NCBI GenBank assembly: GCA_020054095.1
Contig: JAGVMA010000057.1
Coordinates: 1 to 64,000, forward strand
DNA from: Bacteroidia bacterium
GTDB taxonomy: Bacteria > Bacteroidota > Bacteroidia > JADZBD01
Reading direction: 5' to 3'
DNA: 64,000 bases
Shown piece by piece: positions 55,386-63,677 of the stretch. The position numbers and the translations under genes are program-made. Within the stretch, counting starts at the first letter, position 1, and each line of letters opens with the position of its first letter. The notes beneath the pieces are model-generated. The model was not told where the DNA came from. It did no database searches and saw only the letters and a program-made list of their open reading frames with translations.

Positions 55386-56210
55386 TTATTTCCAAATATC
55401 GGCCTCTTGCAATTTTATTTTTCCTTTAAAGAAAAACTTTGTGCTTTGCTCAAATGAATCGGTATAATCCGAAACAAAAAACTGATGCTTAGGCGATTTG
55501 CTTTTACTCAGTAATTTATTTTTAGAAAGGACACTTGCAACTTCAGTAGCCACAATTCCCGCTGAATCAAGAATAGTAATTTTCCCTTTGTAGAATTCTT
55601 CCACTTCGGGTTTTATTAGCGGATAATGTGTGCAAGCAAGTATTAAAGAGTCAATTTTATTTAATTTCCGACTGTTTAAATAAGCATTAATAATGGTGCG
55701 CGAAATTTTATTATTAAAAAATCCTTCTTCTATCATGCTTGCTAAAAGCGGAGTGGCGAGCGAAGGCACTTGGCGTTTTGCATCAAGTTGCTTAATTTTC
55801 TTCTCGTAAATGCCAGAGCGAATAGTTCCTTTGGTGCCAATAACGCCTATGCTCTTCATGTTTTTATTTTTTAAAACATGCGCCACCACCGGATCTATCA
55901 CATTGATGACGTGCGCACGTTTTCCAACAAAATCTTTCACCACTTCATAACCCATTGAAGATGCAGTGTTACATGCTATTACAATCGTTTTACAATTATG
56001 CTCAAGCATGAATTGCGAAATACGCATGCAGTAATATTTTATTGAGTCGGCCGACTTTTCTCCGTAAGGTAAATGGGCAGTATCGCCAAAATAAATTAGT
56101 TTTTCATTAGGCAATACTTTGCTTATTGCATTGGCAACAGTAAGCCCTCCTATGCCGGAATCAAATATTCCTATGGGGCCATTAGCAGTAAAATTTGATT
56201 TGTTTTTCAC
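55386..56210 (-). CDS. murI: Glutamate racemase
   Basis: Cofactor-independent racemase supplying D-Glu for peptidoglycan. Seen: 274 residues; GIFDSGIGGLTVANAI, YFGDTAHLPYGEKS, the two catalytic cysteines in VIACNTASSMGYE and LACTHYPLI, and GTKGTIRSGIYE. No regulatory N-terminal extension of the UDP-MurNAc-Ala-responsive type is obvious. Confidence 0.95.
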   Translation of the reverse strand: MKNKSNFTANGPIGIFDSGIGGLTVANAISKVLPNEKLIYFGDTAHLPYGEKSADSIKYYCMRISQFMLEHNCKTIVIACNTASSMGYEVVKDFVGKRAHVINVIDPVVAHVLKNKNMKSIGVIGTKGTIRSGIYEKKIKQLDAKRQVPSLATPLLASMIEEGFFNNKISRTIINAYLNSRKLNKIDSLILACTHYPLIKPEVEEFYKGKITILDSAGIVATEVASVLSKNKLLSKSKSPKHQFFVSDYTDSFEQSTKFFFKGKIKLQEADIWK

Positions 56211-56349
56211 TGTGTAGATTTTAAATCAGAGTATAAATATAGCCGAGAAATAAAAAAAAGTAAAATTTTTCTTGCATGGTATTAAAAAATAAATTTCATT
56301 TGCATACGAAAATAAAAAACACAGTTTACTTCTTTCACTAAAAAAGAAA

Positions 56350-56487
56350 ATGAAAATGAAAAAAATAAAGTTGACACACAACTTCTTTTCAGCTACCGGC
56401 AAGGCGTTCGGCTTAGTTGCTGTTTTGTTTACCCACCCTGTTGTATGCGTTATTTGCAGCAGAGTTCCGTTTTTCCCGAGACGCTGA
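56350..56487 (+). CDS. Candidate arginine-operon leader peptide (45 aa)
   Basis: A short ORF between murI and the arg operon. From ATG 56350 (ATG 56356 also possible): a basic start (MKMKKIKLTHNFF), then SATGKAFGLVAVLFTHPVVC and a tail VICSRVPFFPRR ending in CCG AGA CGC TGA. Three of its 45 codons are Arg and two are the last sense codons. CCCGA at 56475-56479, inside those codons, can pair with TCGGG (56503-56507), while GCGTA (56489-56493) can pair with TACGC (56513-56517); the two stems exclude each other. That suits a ribosome-sensing attenuator for arginine. No T-tract terminator was found before the first arg gene, so the output step (termination, or translation of the NAGS gene) is open. 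Confidence 0.6.
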   Translation: MKMKKIKLTHNFFSATGKAFGLVAVLFTHPVVCVICSRVPFFPRR

Positions 56488-56599
56488 TGCGTAAAAATTA
56501 AATCGGGGTACCTACGCGGAATCCACTTTCAAACATACTGAAACTAAATCAAGAGTAATTCTCTAAGGAGATTTTACATTCCTAATTCTTTTTCATTAC

Positions 56600-57295
56600 A
56601 TGGAAAACAAGAACAACTTTATTGTTGCTGTTGCGACAATTGAACATACTTTATTCGCAGAAAAAATTTGCGAAGAGATGGCTAACTCAGCCAAAGCGCG
56701 TGGAACGGGTATTGCAAAACGCACACCTGAATACGTGAGTCAAAAAATAGTGGAAGGAAAAGCAGTTATTGCATTTACCGAAAATGGCGAATGGGCCGGC
56801 TTCTGTTACATCGAAACATGGGGGCACGGAAATTACGTTGCTAATTCGGGGTTAATTGTGGCACCACATTTTCGTAAAAGCGGGCTTGCGAAAGCTATCA
56901 AGAAAAAAATATTTGAACTATCGCGCAACAAATTTCCTGAAGCAAAAATATTTGGGCTAACTACCGGATTAGCTGTAATGAAAATAAATTCAGAATTAGG
57001 TTACGAACCGGTTACCTATTCTGAGCTTACGGATGACGAAGAATTTTGGAAAGGCTGCCGAAGCTGCGTGAATTTTGAAATACTACAAAGCAAAGAGCGA
57101 AAAAACTGCCTTTGCACCGCCATGCTTTATAATCCGCAAGAAAAACAGAAAGAGAAAAAAAGATTTTGGGACTTCGCAAAAAATTCAAAGTTATACGAAC
57201 GGTTTATGCAGATGAAGAAGATAACATTACTAAATCCTAAAAAGAAAGAAAGCCAAACTGAAAAGAAATCATTAATAACATTTTTAAATTTTTAA
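56600..57295 (+). CDS. GNAT acetyltransferase, probable N-acetylglutamate synthase
   Basis: First gene of the arginine operon, expected to make N-acetyl-L-glutamate. Seen: 231 residues; a GNAT domain (IAKRTPEYVSQKIVEGKAVIAF; GFCYIETWGHGNYVANSGLIVAPHFRKSGLAKAIKKK, the latter with the acetyl-CoA loop) and a C-terminal region with FWKGCRSCVNFEIL and a Lys-rich tail. It is not ArgA (no kinase-like domain) nor ArgJ. The role follows from its place directly ahead of argG-argC-argD-argF'-argB-argH and from the lack of another acetyl donor step. Spacing to argG is 4 nt. Confidence 0.8.
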   Translation: MENKNNFIVAVATIEHTLFAEKICEEMANSAKARGTGIAKRTPEYVSQKIVEGKAVIAFTENGEWAGFCYIETWGHGNYVANSGLIVAPHFRKSGLAKAIKKKIFELSRNKFPEAKIFGLTTGLAVMKINSELGYEPVTYSELTDDEEFWKGCRSCVNFEILQSKERKNCLCTAMLYNPQEKQKEKKRFWDFAKNSKLYERFMQMKKITLLNPKKKESQTEKKSLITFLNF

Positions 57296-57299
57296 CAAG

Positions 57300-58508
57300 A
57301 TGACAAAAACAAAAAAAGTAGTATTAGCATTTAGCGGAGGCCTTGACACAAGCTACTGCGCCATTTACCTTGCCAAAGAAAAAAACATGGAAGTTCATGC
57401 ACTAACTGTAAACACAGGTGGGTTTTGTGCTGAAGAAGTAAAAAAGATTGAAGCACACGCATTGGCACTTGGCGTAAAATCTTTTAAGTGCGTGGACGAA
57501 ACAAAAAATTACTACAACACGGTTATAAAGTATTTAATATTCGGTAATGTTTTAAAAAACAGTATTTATCCGTTATCTGTGAGTGCCGAACGAATGATCC
57601 AGGCAATTGCAGTTGCTAATTATGCAAGCTTGCTTAATACCGATGCCGTTGCTCATGGCAGCACCGGTGCAGGAAACGACCAAGTGAGATTCGACATTGT
57701 TTTTAATACGATGGTGCCCGAAATGGAAATTATCACTCCAATTCGCGATAGGAAACTTTCGCGCGAAGAAGAAATAAATTATTTGAAAGCAAATGGTATT
57801 GAGATGAATTTTGAAAAAGCGAAGTATTCCATAAACAAAGGAATGTGGGGAACATCTGTGGGCGGAAAAGAAACACTCACCTCTCACCTGCCGTTGCCCG
57901 ATGATGCATTTCCAATTCCTGTAACAAAAACAGAAAGTGAAAATATTGAACTCGAATTTAAAAACGGAGAATTAGTTTCAGTAAACAATTTGCATTTTGA
58001 GCATCCGGTTAATGCTATTGAACATTTACAGTTTGTTGCTGTTCCTTTTGGAATTGGACGTGACGTACACGTAGGCGACACTATCATTGGAATAAAAGGA
58101 AGAGTAGGATTTGAAGCTGCTGCACCATTAATAATTATAAAAGCGCATCATTTATTAGAAAAACATGTGCTAACAAAATGGCAACTGCACTGGAAAGAAC
58201 AATTGGCAAACTGGTATGGAAACTCTTTGCACGAGGGTTTGTATTTAGAACCAACCATGCGAAACATGGAATCGTTTTTTACTGAAACACAAAAAAATGT
58301 AACGGGAAAGGTATTTCTGACACTCCATCCTTATCGTTTTACTTTAAACGGAATTAAATCTGAACATGATTTAATGTCATCAAAATTTGGCAGCTACGGT
58401 GAAGAAAATAAAACTTGGACAGGTGCAGATGTAAAAGGATTTACAAAAATAATGGGCAATCAACAGCTTATCTACAACATAATAAACAAAACAGAATATG
58501 CAAAATAA
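57300..58508 (+). CDS. argG: Argininosuccinate synthase
   Basis: Joins citrulline and aspartate with ATP. Seen: 402 residues; the PP-loop LAFSGGLDTSYCAIYL, AHGSTGAGNDQVRFD, ITPIRDRKLSREEE, YSINKGMWGTSVGGKET and IKGRVGFEAAAP are ArgG landmarks. The 3' end overlaps argC by 11 nt. Confidence 0.96.
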   Translation: MTKTKKVVLAFSGGLDTSYCAIYLAKEKNMEVHALTVNTGGFCAEEVKKIEAHALALGVKSFKCVDETKNYYNTVIKYLIFGNVLKNSIYPLSVSAERMIQAIAVANYASLLNTDAVAHGSTGAGNDQVRFDIVFNTMVPEMEIITPIRDRKLSREEEINYLKANGIEMNFEKAKYSINKGMWGTSVGGKETLTSHLPLPDDAFPIPVTKTESENIELEFKNGELVSVNNLHFEHPVNAIEHLQFVAVPFGIGRDVHVGDTIIGIKGRVGFEAAAPLIIIKAHHLLEKHVLTKWQLHWKEQLANWYGNSLHEGLYLEPTMRNMESFFTETQKNVTGKVFLTLHPYRFTLNGIKSEHDLMSSKFGSYGEENKTWTGADVKGFTKIMGNQQLIYNIINKTEYAK

Positions 58509-59463
58509 AATCAAAGTTGGCATAGTAGGGAGCGCAGGATACACTGGCGGAGAACTAATACGGCTTTTACTACTGCATCCATTTTGCGAAATTGTATTCG
58601 CAAACAGCAAAAGCAATGCTAACAAAAAAATATGCGAGGTGCATGCAGATTTAATTGGTGAAACGGATTTGAAGTTCTCGGCTGACATTAAATCAGATAT
58701 AGATGTTTTGTTTTTATGCGTTGGGCACGGAGAGGCAAAACTGTTTTTAGAAAAAAATAAAATTAGTAATTCTGTAACTATAATTGATTTATCGCAAGAC
58801 AACAGACTGAACCCCGAATTTGTTTATGGCTTGTGCGAGATGAATGGTGCAACAATTAAATCGGCTAAAAGAATTGCAAACCCAGGCTGCTTTGCAACAG
58901 CCATACAATTAGCGCTATTGCCATTAGCGAAAAACAATTTACTAAACAATGAAATTCATATTTCGGCTACCACCGGCTCAACCGGTGCAGGGCAATCTCA
59001 TAGCGGAACTTCCCACTTTAGTTGGCGGCAGAATAATTTAAGTGTTTACAAAGCTTTCGAGCATCAACATTTGGCAGAAATAAATCAATCATTAAAAAAA
59101 TTACAATTGGGATTTAATCAAGAAATAAATTTTGTTCCGATGAGAGGAAGTTTTACGCGCGGAATACTTGCAAGCATTTATACTGATTGCACTATAAGTT
59201 TGCCAGACGCAAAAAAAATATTTGATGAGTTTTACCAAAACTCGAATTATGTTTTTTTGAGCGAGGCAGCTGTAGATTTAAAACAAGTAGTAAACACAAA
59301 TAAATGTTTGCTACATGTGGAGCAGCACGGAAAAAAAATATTTATTGTAAGTGCAATTGATAACTTATTAAAAGGCGCAAGTGGTCAGGCAGTACAAAAC
59401 ATGAACATAGCTTTTGGACTAAAAGAAACAGAAGGATTAAAATTAAAAGCAACTACATTTTAA
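58498..59463 (+). CDS. argC: N-acetyl-gamma-glutamyl-phosphate reductase
   Basis: NADPH-dependent reduction of N-acetylglutamyl phosphate. Seen: 321 residues; VGIVGSAGYTGGELIRLL, LFLCVGHGEAK, the catalytic Cys in ANPGCFATAIQLALLPL, STGAGQSHSGTSHFSW, and FVPMRGSFTRGILASIY. Type 1 short form. Overlaps argG and is followed by argD after 1 nt. Confidence 0.95.
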   Translation: MQNKIKVGIVGSAGYTGGELIRLLLLHPFCEIVFANSKSNANKKICEVHADLIGETDLKFSADIKSDIDVLFLCVGHGEAKLFLEKNKISNSVTIIDLSQDNRLNPEFVYGLCEMNGATIKSAKRIANPGCFATAIQLALLPLAKNNLLNNEIHISATTGSTGAGQSHSGTSHFSWRQNNLSVYKAFEHQHLAEINQSLKKLQLGFNQEINFVPMRGSFTRGILASIYTDCTISLPDAKKIFDEFYQNSNYVFLSEAAVDLKQVVNTNKCLLHVEQHGKKIFIVSAIDNLLKGASGQAVQNMNIAFGLKETEGLKLKATTF

Positions 59464-59464
59464 C

Positions 59465-60607
59465 ATGAAAATTTTTGATGTATATCCAATTTTTGACATA
59501 GAGCCGGTGAAAGCAAGTGGCTCATATTTATGGGATAAAAGCGGAGTCCAATATTTAGATCTGTATGGTGGGCATGCTGTAATATCTGTGGGGCACTCGC
59601 ATCCATATTACGTAGCAAAAATTACTGAGCAACTAAATAAAATTGGTTTTTATTCTAATTCCATCAAAATTTCGTTACAAGAAGAATTGGCGGAAAAACT
59701 TGGCAAATTATCGGGCTGCGAAAACTACTCGCTTTTTTTATGCAATTCAGGTGCTGAAGCAAACGAGAATGCGCTTAAGTTAGCATCATTTGAAAACGGG
59801 AGAAAAAAAGTAGTTGCGATAAAAAAAGCGTTTCACGGGCGCACTTCACTTGCTGTGGCAGCTACTGATGACAAATCAATTGTATCGCCAATAAACGAGA
59901 AAAGCGATGTAGTATTTGTTGGCATGAATGATGAATCAGCTATTGAAAGCGCAATAGATAAAACCACATGTGCTGTTATAATTGAAGGAATACAAGGCGT
60001 GGGAGGCGTAAAAGTTCCCGCAGACTCATTTTTGAAAAAAATAAAATTATTATGCGAAAAAAATAATGCAATACTAATTTTGGATGAAGTACAATCAGGC
60101 TACGGGCGAAGCGGCAAATTTTTTGCTCACCAATATTCGGAAATAAAGCCCGATATAATTACTGTAGCAAAAGGAATGGGAAATGGTTTTCCGGTTGCGG
60201 GCGTGCTTATCTCTGAAAAATTTAATGCCAAGCACGGAGTGTTGGGAACAACATTTGGTGGGAATCATCTTGCGTGTACTGCTGCTATAGCTGTGCTTGA
60301 TATTATTAAAAACGAAAAACTTGTGGACAATGCAATTGAGATGGGAAAATATATCACAACTGAGATATCAAGCATAAAAGAAATAAAAGAAATACGGGGC
60401 AAAGGATTAATGCTTGGCATTGAATTAAATTTTAACTGTAATGAATTAAGAAAACAATTACTGTTTGAGCACAACATATTCACGGGATCCGCTTCCGATA
60501 AAAATACAATTAGAATATTGCCTGCATTAAACATCAGAAAAACAGACATTGATGTTTTTATAGAGGCATTCAGTAAAGTTTTAACTAATCAAAAACAATA
60601 TACATGA
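59465..60607 (+). CDS. argD: Acetylornithine (or acylornithine) aminotransferase
   Basis: PLP class-III aminotransferase. Seen: 380 residues; YLDLYGGHAVISVGHSHPYY, NSGAEANENALKLA, KAFHGRT, ILDEVQSGYGRSGKFFAHQ, and the PLP Lys in ITVAKGMGNGFPVAGVLIS, followed by TFGGNHLACTAA. Operon position assigns it to arginine rather than lysine synthesis, though ArgD enzymes are often bifunctional. Overlaps the carbamoyltransferase by 4 nt. Confidence 0.93.
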   Translation: MKIFDVYPIFDIEPVKASGSYLWDKSGVQYLDLYGGHAVISVGHSHPYYVAKITEQLNKIGFYSNSIKISLQEELAEKLGKLSGCENYSLFLCNSGAEANENALKLASFENGRKKVVAIKKAFHGRTSLAVAATDDKSIVSPINEKSDVVFVGMNDESAIESAIDKTTCAVIIEGIQGVGGVKVPADSFLKKIKLLCEKNNAILILDEVQSGYGRSGKFFAHQYSEIKPDIITVAKGMGNGFPVAGVLISEKFNAKHGVLGTTFGGNHLACTAAIAVLDIIKNEKLVDNAIEMGKYITTEISSIKEIKEIRGKGLMLGIELNFNCNELRKQLLFEHNIFTGSASDKNTIRILPALNIRKTDIDVFIEAFSKVLTNQKQYT

Positions 60608-61602
60608 AGCATTTCACAACAGTTCACGATGTAAAAAACATTGACTCACTTATTGATGATGCATTACTATTAAAAAACAATCCATTTACACATCAGCATT
60701 TAGGAAAAAATAAAACACTCGGATTAATTTTTCTCAACCCAAGTTTACGCACACGGATGAGTGCACAAAAAGCTGCAATGAATTTGGGTATGAATGTAAT
60801 TTCCATGAACGTAGATAAAGATGGCTGGGCGCTTGAATATGAAGATGGGGCAATTATGAACGGAAATAAGATAGAGCACATAAAAGATGCTGCTGCGGTA
60901 ATGGGAACATATTGTGATATAATCGGAATCAGATGCTTCCCGAATTTGCAAAACAAAGCTGAGGACTATTCAGAAAAGGTATTTATAAAATTCATGAAGT
61001 ATTGCAAGGTGCCAATCATTAGTTTGGAAAGCGCCACGCTGCATCCATTACAAAGTTTTGCCGATTTAATTAGCATAAAAGAAACGTGGAAGCAAAAAAT
61101 AAAACCAAAAATTGTGTTAACCTGGGCACCGCATATTAAAGCGTTGCCACAAGCTGTAGCAAATTCTTTTAGCGAATGGATGCTTAAAGCGGATTACGAT
61201 TTAACAATTGCGCACCCAAATGGATATGAACTTAGCGAAGATTACACTGGTGGGGCAAAAATTACAAACAACCAAAAAGAGGCAATGCTTGGTGCAGATT
61301 ACGTGTATGTGAAAAACTGGTCGTGCTATAATGAATATGGAAAAATTACTGCTGAGCACAACGATTGGGTGTTAACAAAAGAAAAAATGAAAATCACAAA
61401 TGATGCAAAAATCATGCACTGTTTGCCTGTTAGAAGAAATATAGAACTAAGTGACGAGTTGATTGATTGTAGTAACTCGCTAATAATTAAGCAAGCAGAA
61501 AACAGAGTGTATGCAGCTCAAGCAGTTTTGAAATCAATTCTGGAAAAAGAAAATATAATTACTCAAAAAATAAATCATGAAGAAAAACTTGCAAATAGTT
61601 AA
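60604..61602 (+). CDS. argF': N-acetyl- or N-succinyl-ornithine carbamoyltransferase
   Basis: Transcarbamylase acting on acylated ornithine, the hallmark of the arginine pathway in Bacteroidetes and Xanthomonas. Seen: 332 residues; carbamoyl-phosphate loop FLNPSLRTRMSAQKAAMNLG (SLRTR instead of STRT), WALEYEDGAIMNGNKIEHI, LESATLHPLQSFADL, WAPHIKALPQAVANSF and the C-terminal MHCLPVRRNIELSDELID. In Bacteroides the enzyme uses succinylornithine and a single residue in the loop after MNG (Pro90 there) sets the specificity. Here the likely equivalent is Ile90 in NKIEH, so acetyl versus succinyl is not settled. Overlaps argB by 26 nt. Confidence 0.9.
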   Translation: MKHFTTVHDVKNIDSLIDDALLLKNNPFTHQHLGKNKTLGLIFLNPSLRTRMSAQKAAMNLGMNVISMNVDKDGWALEYEDGAIMNGNKIEHIKDAAAVMGTYCDIIGIRCFPNLQNKAEDYSEKVFIKFMKYCKVPIISLESATLHPLQSFADLISIKETWKQKIKPKIVLTWAPHIKALPQAVANSFSEWMLKADYDLTIAHPNGYELSEDYTGGAKITNNQKEAMLGADYVYVKNWSCYNEYGKITAEHNDWVLTKEKMKITNDAKIMHCLPVRRNIELSDELIDCSNSLIIKQAENRVYAAQAVLKSILEKENIITQKINHEEKLANS

Positions 61603-62368
61603 AATAGGCGGCAATGTAATTGACGATGAAAAAATGTTGGAGCAATTTTTAGTTGATTATTCAAAAATTAAAAAAAACAAAATACTGGTACATGGTGGCG
61701 GTAAACTTGCAACCGAATTGGCAAACAAATTAGGTGTTGCGCAATCTATGATTGATGGGCGAAGAGTTACCGATGTCGAGACGCTACAAATTACAACTAT
61801 GGTTTATGGGGGTTTAATTAACAAATCAATAGTGGCTAAATTGCAAGCAAAAAAAACAAATGCTGTTGGGCTGTGTGGTGCAGATTTGAATACAATAAAT
61901 GCTCACAAGCGTAATGATTCAAAAATTGATTACGGATTTGTAGGCGATATAGATGCTGTGAACACAAAAGCAATATGCGCTCTTATTGAATCAGGAGCAG
62001 CTATTGTATTTTGCGCCATCACTCACGATGGCAAAGGGCAATTGTTAAACACCAACGCAGACACCATAGCATCGGAAATAGCAATAGCGTTATCAAAAAT
62101 TTATAATGTTCAACTAAATTATTGTTTCGAAAAGAATGGAGTACTTAAAAATATAGAAATTGAAAATGATATTCACCATACAATAACAAGCGATAACTAC
62201 AAAATTTTAATCGCTGATGGTACAATTTCAAAAGGCATGATTCCGAAACTTAATAATGCTTTTAATGCAATAGAACATGGTGTAAAAAAAGTAATTATAG
62301 GACATTCAACAAAAATAGCCGCTATTATAAAAAGTGAAAAAAACTGCGGAACAATTTTAGCAAATTAA
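61577..62368 (+). CDS. argB: N-acetylglutamate kinase
   Basis: Phosphorylates N-acetyl-L-glutamate (or acylglutamate). Seen: 263 residues; VKIGGNVIDDEKML, VHGGGKLATELANKLG, RVTDVETLQITTMVYGG, VGLCGADLNTINAHKR, GFVGDIDAVNTKAI, LNTNADTIASEIAIAL and a C-terminal GTI ending. The N-terminus starts directly at the beta strand without the extra helix of arginine-inhibited hexameric forms, so weak feedback control is expected (inference). 4 nt before argH. Confidence 0.94.
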   Translation: MKKNLQIVKIGGNVIDDEKMLEQFLVDYSKIKKNKILVHGGGKLATELANKLGVAQSMIDGRRVTDVETLQITTMVYGGLINKSIVAKLQAKKTNAVGLCGADLNTINAHKRNDSKIDYGFVGDIDAVNTKAICALIESGAAIVFCAITHDGKGQLLNTNADTIASEIAIALSKIYNVQLNYCFEKNGVLKNIEIENDIHHTITSDNYKILIADGTISKGMIPKLNNAFNAIEHGVKKVIIGHSTKIAAIIKSEKNCGTILAN

Positions 62369-62372
62369 AAAA

Positions 62373-63677
62373 ATGAAAACAAAACTCTGGCAAAAAGAAA
62401 ACTCCACAATAAACAAAATGGTTGAATGTTTCACCATCGGGAATGACAATGAAATTGATTTGCGTTTAGCAAAATACGATGTAATTGGTTCGCTGGCTCA
62501 TGTAAAAATGCTCAACTCCATTGGTATAGTAAGTAATAAGGAATTTGGGGCAATTACCGATGAATTAAAAAATATTTTAGAATTCATAAATGTTGGGGAT
62601 TTTAAAATTGAAACGGGCGTAGAAGACGTACATTCCCAAATAGAATTAATGCTAACAACAGAAATTGGCGATGCTGCAAAAAAAATTCACACCGGTCGAT
62701 CGCGAAACGATCAAGTATTGCTTGACATAAAATTGTATTTAAAAGACGAACTGAAAGAAATAACCAAACTGGTTTCTGAGTTGTTTGATTTACTAATATC
62801 GCTGAGCAACGAGCACAAAAATAAACTATTGCCGGGCTATACACATTTGCAAATCGCAATGCCATCGTCATTTGGGTTGTGGTTTGGAGCTTATGCCGAA
62901 AGTTTAACCGATGATATGGAAATGATTATTGCCGCATACAATGTTGTGAATAAAAACCCGCTGGGTTCAGGAGCCGGTTATGGCAGCTCGTTTTCATTGA
63001 ACAGAAAAGAAACTACCGAGCTACTTGATTTCGAAACGCTAAACTACAATTCAATATATGCTCAGATGACGAGAGGGAAAACAGAAAAAATTGTTTCCAT
63101 TGCAATGGCAGCTGTGGCGAGCACATTATCAAAATTAGCTTACGATGTTTGCCTTTACTTAAATCAGAATTTTGATTTTATCACATTCCCTGATGAACTA
63201 ACAACGGGGAGCAGCATTATGCCGCACAAAAAAAATCCGGACATATTTGAGCTAACGCGTGCAAAATGCAACAGAATACAAGCGCTGCCCAATGAACTAA
63301 CATTACTAATAAACAATTTACCATCTGGTTACCACCGCGACATGCAACTGTCAAAGGAAATATTATTCCCCGCCTTAACAGCCCTGAAATCTTGTTTGAG
63401 TATAATCACTTATTCATTCGGGAAAATAACAGTGAATGAAAACATACTCGATGATAAAAAATATGAGAATTTATTTAGTGTTGAGCGAGTGAATGAATTA
63501 GTGAAGCAAGGAATTAGTTTTAGAGATGCCTATAAAATTACTGCCGAAGAAATAGATCGTGGTGAGTTTTCATCAAAAAAAACCATATCACACACCCACG
63601 AAGGCAGTATAGGAGACTTATGCAACACCGAAATTGAAAAAAGAATGAAGCAGAAAGTGCAGCAAATATTGGGCTAA
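62373..63677 (+). CDS. argH: Argininosuccinate lyase
   Basis: Cleaves argininosuccinate to arginine and fumarate. Seen: 434 residues; GVEDVHSQIELMLTTEIGDAAKKIHTGRSRNDQV, LLPGYTHLQIAMPSSFG, NPLGSGAGYGSSFSLNR, and the signature GSSIMPHKKNPDIFEL with the catalytic Ser. Last gene of the operon. Neither argE (deacylase) nor ornithine-releasing argJ is in the window, so the deacylation step must be encoded elsewhere. Confidence 0.96.
   Translation: MKTKLWQKENSTINKMVECFTIGNDNEIDLRLAKYDVIGSLAHVKMLNSIGIVSNKEFGAITDELKNILEFINVGDFKIETGVEDVHSQIELMLTTEIGDAAKKIHTGRSRNDQVLLDIKLYLKDELKEITKLVSELFDLLISLSNEHKNKLLPGYTHLQIAMPSSFGLWFGAYAESLTDDMEMIIAAYNVVNKNPLGSGAGYGSSFSLNRKETTELLDFETLNYNSIYAQMTRGKTEKIVSIAMAAVASTLSKLAYDVCLYLNQNFDFITFPDELTTGSSIMPHKKNPDIFELTRAKCNRIQALPNELTLLINNLPSGYHRDMQLSKEILFPALTALKSCLSIITYSFGKITVNENILDDKKYENLFSVERVNELVKQGISFRDAYKITAEEIDRGEFSSKKTISHTHEGSIGDLCNTEIEKRMKQKVQQILG

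Follow-up and report, generated by a model that had tools for sequence, protein, structure and literature searches.

The window analysed here (the whole 64,000-nt stretch of DNA) carries a seven-gene arginine cluster in the order GNAT-argG-argC-argD-argF-argB-argH. Between this cluster and a divergent murI-like ORF on the opposite strand, which starts at 56210 and owes its name to the first-pass annotation, lies a 45-codon ORF. The features of the region are as follows.

56272-56302, plus strand: weak promoter-like site of the Bacteroidota type, read from the sequence (TTG at 56272-56274, 20 nt, TTCATTTG at 56295-56302)
56350-56487, plus strand: putative leader ORF, 45 codons from ATG to TGA, MKMKKIKLTHNFFSATGKAFGLVAVLFTHPVVCVICSRVPFFPRR and stop (sequence, orthologues before GNAT-argG, class-wide counterparts)
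56390-56430, plus strand: T1, a tentative hairpin candidate, stem 56390-56393/56419-56422 with an inner helix, U-tract TTTTGTTT at 56423-56430 (layout in relatives)
56461-56463, plus strand: Arg codon AGA, -8 from the stop (Arg at -8 in 86 of 138 leaders)
56479-56481 and 56482-56484, plus strand: terminal Arg codons AGA (-2) and CGC (-1) (Arg at -2 in 136 of 138 leaders)
56481-56492, plus strand: hairpin P1, ACGC-TGAT-GCGT, with the leader stop codon in its loop (comparable stop-codon hairpins in most families)
56506-56524, plus strand: hairpin P2, GGGTACC-TACGC-GGAATCC, pentaloop 56513-56517 (loop-motif test, covariation)
56600-57295, plus strand: GNAT acyltransferase, first gene of the cluster (ORF list, Pfam)
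57300-58508, plus strand: argG (Pfam match)
58498-59463, plus strand: argC (Pfam match)
59465-60607, plus strand: argD (Pfam match)
60604-61602, plus strand: argF-type carbamoyltransferase (Pfam match)
61577-62368, plus strand: argB (Pfam match)
62373-63677, plus strand: argH (Pfam match)

The ORF reported by the first-pass annotation is indeed present; its 3′ end reads CCG AGA CGC TGA, i.e., Pro-Arg-Arg-stop, with the further AGA six codons before the terminal pair, and 112 nt separate it from the GNAT start. As expected for an attenuator, this short ORF lies between a predicted promoter and the first gene of the operon. The Bacteroidota promoter consensus is TAnnTTTG, of which the A is missing in TTCATTTG; a similar pattern was found ahead of 11 of 97 leaders, vs. 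0.5 in shuffled sequences. With just three Arg codons, the window leader has few compared with classical leaders, which counts against the attenuator reading. A scan of the window with Rfam 15 gave no match above the gathering score.

The first-pass annotation had also proposed a tblastn search with the peptide and an inspection of the gene that follows each match. Among 99 relatives, this search revealed two clear co-linear homologues (61% and 46% identity, E 4e-11 and 3e-4), MKKVKLSFNFLSAADKAFGVLAVLFSSPRAAVIIAREVPFFRRR and MKNKNINALKAAARRVFAAVAVLFSIPAGIVFATSKVPFFPRR, each located 120-130 nt 5′ of the same GNAT gene and then argG. Furthermore, 80 GNAT loci were taken from named genomes, among them Pedobacter, Chitinophagaceae, Adhaeribacter and Rufibacter, and nearly all bear a short ORF ending in Arg-Arg-stop or Arg-x-stop 75-170 nt upstream of GNAT, with tails such as PFWVRR, PFRVRR, RQNYTPRI, MPRV and PLRA. 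The GNAT gene is present in 133 of 395 genomes of the class, and 130 upstream regions were scored by a strict rule: an ATG-initiated ORF had to be 12 or more codons long, to stop 55-190 nt upstream of GNAT and to have at least two Arg among the last ten residues and one in the last two. The rule was passed at 63 loci (48%). Among the controls it was passed by 4.2% of dinucleotide shuffles, by 7.4% of random windows taken at the GNAT loci and by 9 of 130 reverse complements, so that an Arg-tailed ORF at the leader position is 7-12 times commoner class-wide than in the controls. These counts come from related genomes that are not independent; identical or nearly identical tails were thinned, and no tree was used. 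Several further loci bear visibly Arg-rich tails that miss the strict rule, and in the GNAT-bearing families f6, f16, f22, f53, f60 and f72 no clear leader was found. A peptide profile (A2) searched across the class gave four clear matches only, because the peptides diverge too fast. We give hardly any credence to the view that the ORF encodes a small functional protein or is a chance ORF unrelated to arginine control: nothing specific speaks for it, the peptide matching no Pfam family, and against it stand the position, the Arg tail and the class-wide recurrence at about 7 times the level of random windows.

Two variants were noticed among these loci. One leader before GNAT (L072) is expanded by a tandem peptide repeat, YGRPAPMANDF, and keeps a VGVRR tail. 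At three loci of family f2 (G206, G326 and G382) the leaders apparently end in RRASLA-stop or RRASWA-stop, a tail that escapes the strict rule, and a GGCC hairpin spans the region from the Arg codon to the stop.

The distribution of the ArgR repressor gives the leader its context. ArgR (PF01316) was matched in 17 of the 395 class genomes and in 8 of 14 controls, and the search of the window genome gave no PF01316 match. In 12 of the 13 ArgR-positive GNAT genomes, argR lies directly upstream of GNAT, at the position of the leader, and no leader is present there; in the thirteenth (G164) the ArgR match is marginal and lies elsewhere in the genome. The single apparent leader among the ArgR-positive GNAT genomes, a strict-rule pass (G394), falls within the argR reading frame. 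Arg-tailed leaders were found at 62 of 117 GNAT loci from genomes without an ArgR match. The best explanation of this arrangement is that the putative leader stands in for the repressor gene, in function as well as in position. Related mini-genes thus precede arginine genes in many families of the class, apparently sensing the arginine supply where ArgR is missing. This would supply a regulator for the arginine operon in the large part of the Bacteroidota that lacks ArgR, and would place a repressor protein and a leader peptide at one and the same position before the same gene.

The middle of the peptide had been taken in the first-pass annotation to be selected at the protein level, a view that the relatives do not bear out. 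A hairpin with a run of T behind it is formed by the conserved mid-peptide codons of 24 related leaders (Chitinophagaceae, Rufibacter, f1, f36, f38, f39 and f58); its 3′ arm ends about 42 nt before the leader end (20 of 109 leaders in this bin, vs. 0.15 expected). All six pairs show double changes, 98.6% of cells pair, and the covariation was reached in 0 of 500 shuffles; since the covariation set was selected for the hairpin, its constant position carries more weight. The mid-peptide motif IPAGIVF or LPGTVFF is thus, judging by the sequences, a reading of the hairpin plus U-tract, kept at the RNA level, and it is explained without protein-level selection because the terminator-like element dictates it in the relatives. 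In Chitinophagaceae leaders an Arg codon, CGT at -23, stands immediately 5′ of the U-tract GGGTTTTT of an upstream hairpin; Arg occupies -23 in 16 of the 24 leaders carrying the -42 element. The window leader itself is missing the element at -42. Its candidate T1 is weaker, with a U-tract near -69 inside the ORF; the layout is common to the three nearest relatives of the window (L031, G334 and L051), the covariation over these four sequences is not significant, and the fold of the window has a z of -0.15.

An in-frame hairpin of this kind calls to mind the E. coli pyrBI leader (pyrL), which is 135 nt long and contains an in-frame terminator suppressed by a closely following ribosome (PMC4824070, PMC5021804). 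By analogy, an intrinsic terminator within the ORF would be suppressed only by a closely following ribosome, so that the leader would read coupling (and thereby perhaps UTP or translation in general); the Arg codons would add a second input. The hairpin and U-tract about 42 nt before the end of 24 related leaders, and a leader length of 138 nt against the 135 nt of pyrBI (PMC4824070), are consistent with such a scheme. However, the window has no element at -42 and only a weak one at -69, and coupling alone does not explain the Arg codons. The relatives resemble pyrBI in the in-frame terminator; pyrBI responds to UTP and not to an amino acid, whereas the arg ORF closes with Arg codons. As the main principle of control we regard this scheme as rather unlikely.

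Between families the peptides are mostly unalignable, and only Arg near the end is constant. The penultimate codon is Arg in 60 of 63 strict-rule leaders and in 136 of 138 leaders of the two sets combined; since Arg within the final two residues was itself a criterion for the sets, it is the preference for -2 that is the observation. The last residue is drawn from the small set R, I, V, P and A. All six Arg codons are used in the leaders, and CGA makes up 18.5% of their Arg codons vs. 7.0% in the large ORFs of the same loci. Comparison of the leaders thus shows, at the sequence level, Arg codons under selection, and an attenuator would be expected to have such codons for its own end product, lying close to the ORF end and kept in relatives. 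The first-pass annotation had raised nascent-peptide arrest as an alternative. In this reading the peptide would stall the ribosome at the stop codon when arginine or ornithine is sensed, in the manner of AAP, TnaC and SpeFL, and not for want of charged tRNA. The recurrent C-terminal pattern (aromatic)-x-[P/V/I/T]-R-[R/I/V/A/P]-stop, with Arg nearly always penultimate, and the very constant RQNYTPRI tails of Pedobacter do count in its favour. Outside close relatives, however, Arg is all that is common; many leaders contain 3-5 Arg codons at varied spacing, the peptide middle is explained by the RNA hairpin, the His and Trp leaders encoded in the same genome are simple runs of codons, and the residues conserved class-wide do not extend beyond the Arg positions. 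Arrest is thereby weakened to an improbable alternative. The pattern and usage of the Arg codons strongly suggest codon sensing, and since the peptides are otherwise mostly unalignable while Arg near the end is constant, sensing of tRNA charging is favoured over an arrest peptide.

The leader and downstream RNA of the window fold no more stably than shuffled sequences (z -0.15 to -0.36), and the structural case therefore rests on comparison. When 51 non-redundant leaders were folded in 32-nt segments, the profile dipped twice, to a mean z of -1.2 at the stop codon and of -1.8 a further 30 nt on, and was flat between the two minima and for about 30 nt beyond. The second minimum corresponds to P2, placed at about +16 to +36 after the leader in most families (about 18-37 nt downstream for the hairpin with the UAYGY pentaloop), with a loop CC-UAYGY-GG in about ten of them; the P2 stem of the window has seven positions, including one A-A mismatch. 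This CC-UAYGY-GG loop motif, searched for with no stem required, occurs in 16 distinct contexts in arg spacers vs. 0.7 expected, and at least four of five further outer pairs are present in 15 of the 16 arg-spacer matches vs. 2 of 36 elsewhere. The P2 stem also covaries (37 double changes, 0 of 500 shuffles), but the sequences had partly been chosen for the stem, so that the stem-free loop-motif test is the fairer one. Taken together, the comparison shows P1 and P2 as real elements of the leader family, as far as sequences can tell.

The first-pass annotation had envisaged a different fold, with stalling at the Arg codons switching between two overlapping stems. The segments concerned exist and are complementary, CCCGA (56475-56479) to TCGGG (56503-56507) and GCGTA (56489-56493) to TACGC (56513-56517), but the switch is not conserved as stated; what is conserved is P1 and P2 with its UAYGY loop, which are not mutually exclusive across families, and no exclusive fold is kept between families. 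The CCCGA/TCGGG helix was rejected, as it is not kept in the two nearest relatives. The complementarity of the loop to GCGTA is kept in the window's own group and is not general: kissing of the P2 loop with the 3′ arm of P1 was detected in 8 of 119 cases at p ≤ 0.05, near chance, and was retained only as a feature of this close group. P2 as a DNA operator was likewise rejected, because the stem sequence varies freely and the pairing is kept. A search with the P2 model (R1) at other operons gave clear matches all at arg sites, which had trained the model; the ten non-arg matches that were inspected fall within or next to unrelated genes and look fortuitous. At Pedobacter loci such as L047 and L068 a constant hairpin (e.g., GAGGAATTGATCCTC) stands about 40-70 nt before GNAT. 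The loop of this hairpin could pair with CAATTAA shortly 3′ of it, possibly making an H-type pseudoknot close to the start of GNAT.

No intrinsic terminator was found after the leader in the window. Over the 51 leaders, the U content after P2 is 29% and there is no U-tract as a rule; the 40 nt after P2 are G-poor (10-14% G, C/G about 1.5-2.3), a composition that would suit Rho and is not proof of it. This bears directly on classical attenuation by a terminator between the leader and GNAT, for which one might argue since his and trp of the same genome are controlled so. The window genome (G000) encodes a His leader, MKQFTHIHHHHTFP and stop, about 82 nt before hisG (L301, G000:C82), accompanied by an antiterminator-like repeat of the classical type, GGGUAAGC/GCUUAC. 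It also encodes a Trp leader, MRIILNNNWWWLNS and stop, about 84 nt before trpE (L316, G000:C40); each is then followed by an intrinsic terminator, strong in the case of trp, consisting of a GC-rich hairpin and a U-tract. In two f15 genomes among the relatives, ilvD is preceded by Leu/Ile/Val-rich leaders (L305 and L306, MNGKVFLLSIIILLEF and MYPSVFLLSLIILIGFSK, each closed by a stop) with intrinsic terminators, and the his leaders of the same two genomes (L300 and L304) seem to be without one. The His and Trp leaders, together with the ilvD leaders of relatives, indicate that leader-peptide control is in normal use in this genome. The arg leader, however, is three times as long as its his and trp counterparts and has no terminator after it, so that classical attenuation is largely refuted here and very improbable.

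The arginine-sensing leader proposed in the first-pass annotation is thus supported: homologous leaders precede the GNAT gene of the operon, and their terminal Arg codons are conserved. Comparison shows what the putative leader senses and which gene it targets, and we consider it probable that the element is a cis-acting leader peptide of the arginine operon in which the supply of Arg-tRNA sets the ribosome position. The pioneer ribosome would translate the 45-codon ORF, slowing down at the Arg codons at -8, -2 and -1 and keeping P1 open if charged Arg-tRNA is scarce; when arginine is ample, it would reach the stop and leave, and its release would let P1 form. The ribosome position would thereby decide whether P1 forms next to the constant hairpin P2, and the P1/P2 state would set either the amount of transcript continuing into the GNAT-arg genes or their translation. 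The sensor is well supported, whereas for the output step we infer one of several candidates, namely Rho-dependent termination in the G-poor stretch after P2, the in-ORF terminator-like hairpins when coupling fails, or translational effects. Since no intrinsic terminator follows the leader, Rho or in-ORF termination would be more likely than terminator/antiterminator switching.

More tentatively, and with less confidence than doubt, we suggest a class-wide arginine control of new design that replaces ArgR in Bacteroidota. It would combine an Arg-tailed leader of about 44 codons, an in-frame terminator-like hairpin with a U-tract as a coupling checkpoint, a stop-codon hairpin and a UAYGY-pentaloop hairpin at a fixed spot just ahead of the stopped ribosome, with no downstream intrinsic terminator. 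This would offer a testable attenuator architecture unlike that of the genome's own his and trp leaders.

The arg leader resembles the E. coli-type his, trp, ilv and thr attenuators in having a short ORF, end-product codons near its end and RNA hairpins after it; it differs in its length (45 codons vs. about 14-30), its few regulatory codons, the lack of a terminator after it and, in relatives, the extra in-ORF hairpin with a U-tract. The fungal arginine attenuator peptide (arg-2/CPA1) is likewise encoded by an arginine-responsive upstream ORF of an arginine gene, but it acts by a conserved peptide sequence, and the arg leader peptide is not conserved. In the open-access papers that were searched, no arginine leader of this kind was found; the only related statement there is a general remark, in a Flavobacterium psychrophilum study, on leader-peptide attenuation before amino-acid operons (PMC9723704). 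Codon sensing without an intrinsic terminator is known from the proline-codon leaders mgtL and mgtP of Salmonella, where Rho has been shown for mgtA and suggested for mgtCBR (PMC3641672, PMC5021804), although proline, Mg2+ and the RNA set these systems apart. Paired Arg codons occur in Salmonella speF orf34 (SpeFL), whose two consecutive Arg codons in the regulatory ORF respond to arginine (PMC6386406); it belongs to another operon and phylum, is controlled by Rho and RNase G, and we saw no sequence relation to the arg leader.
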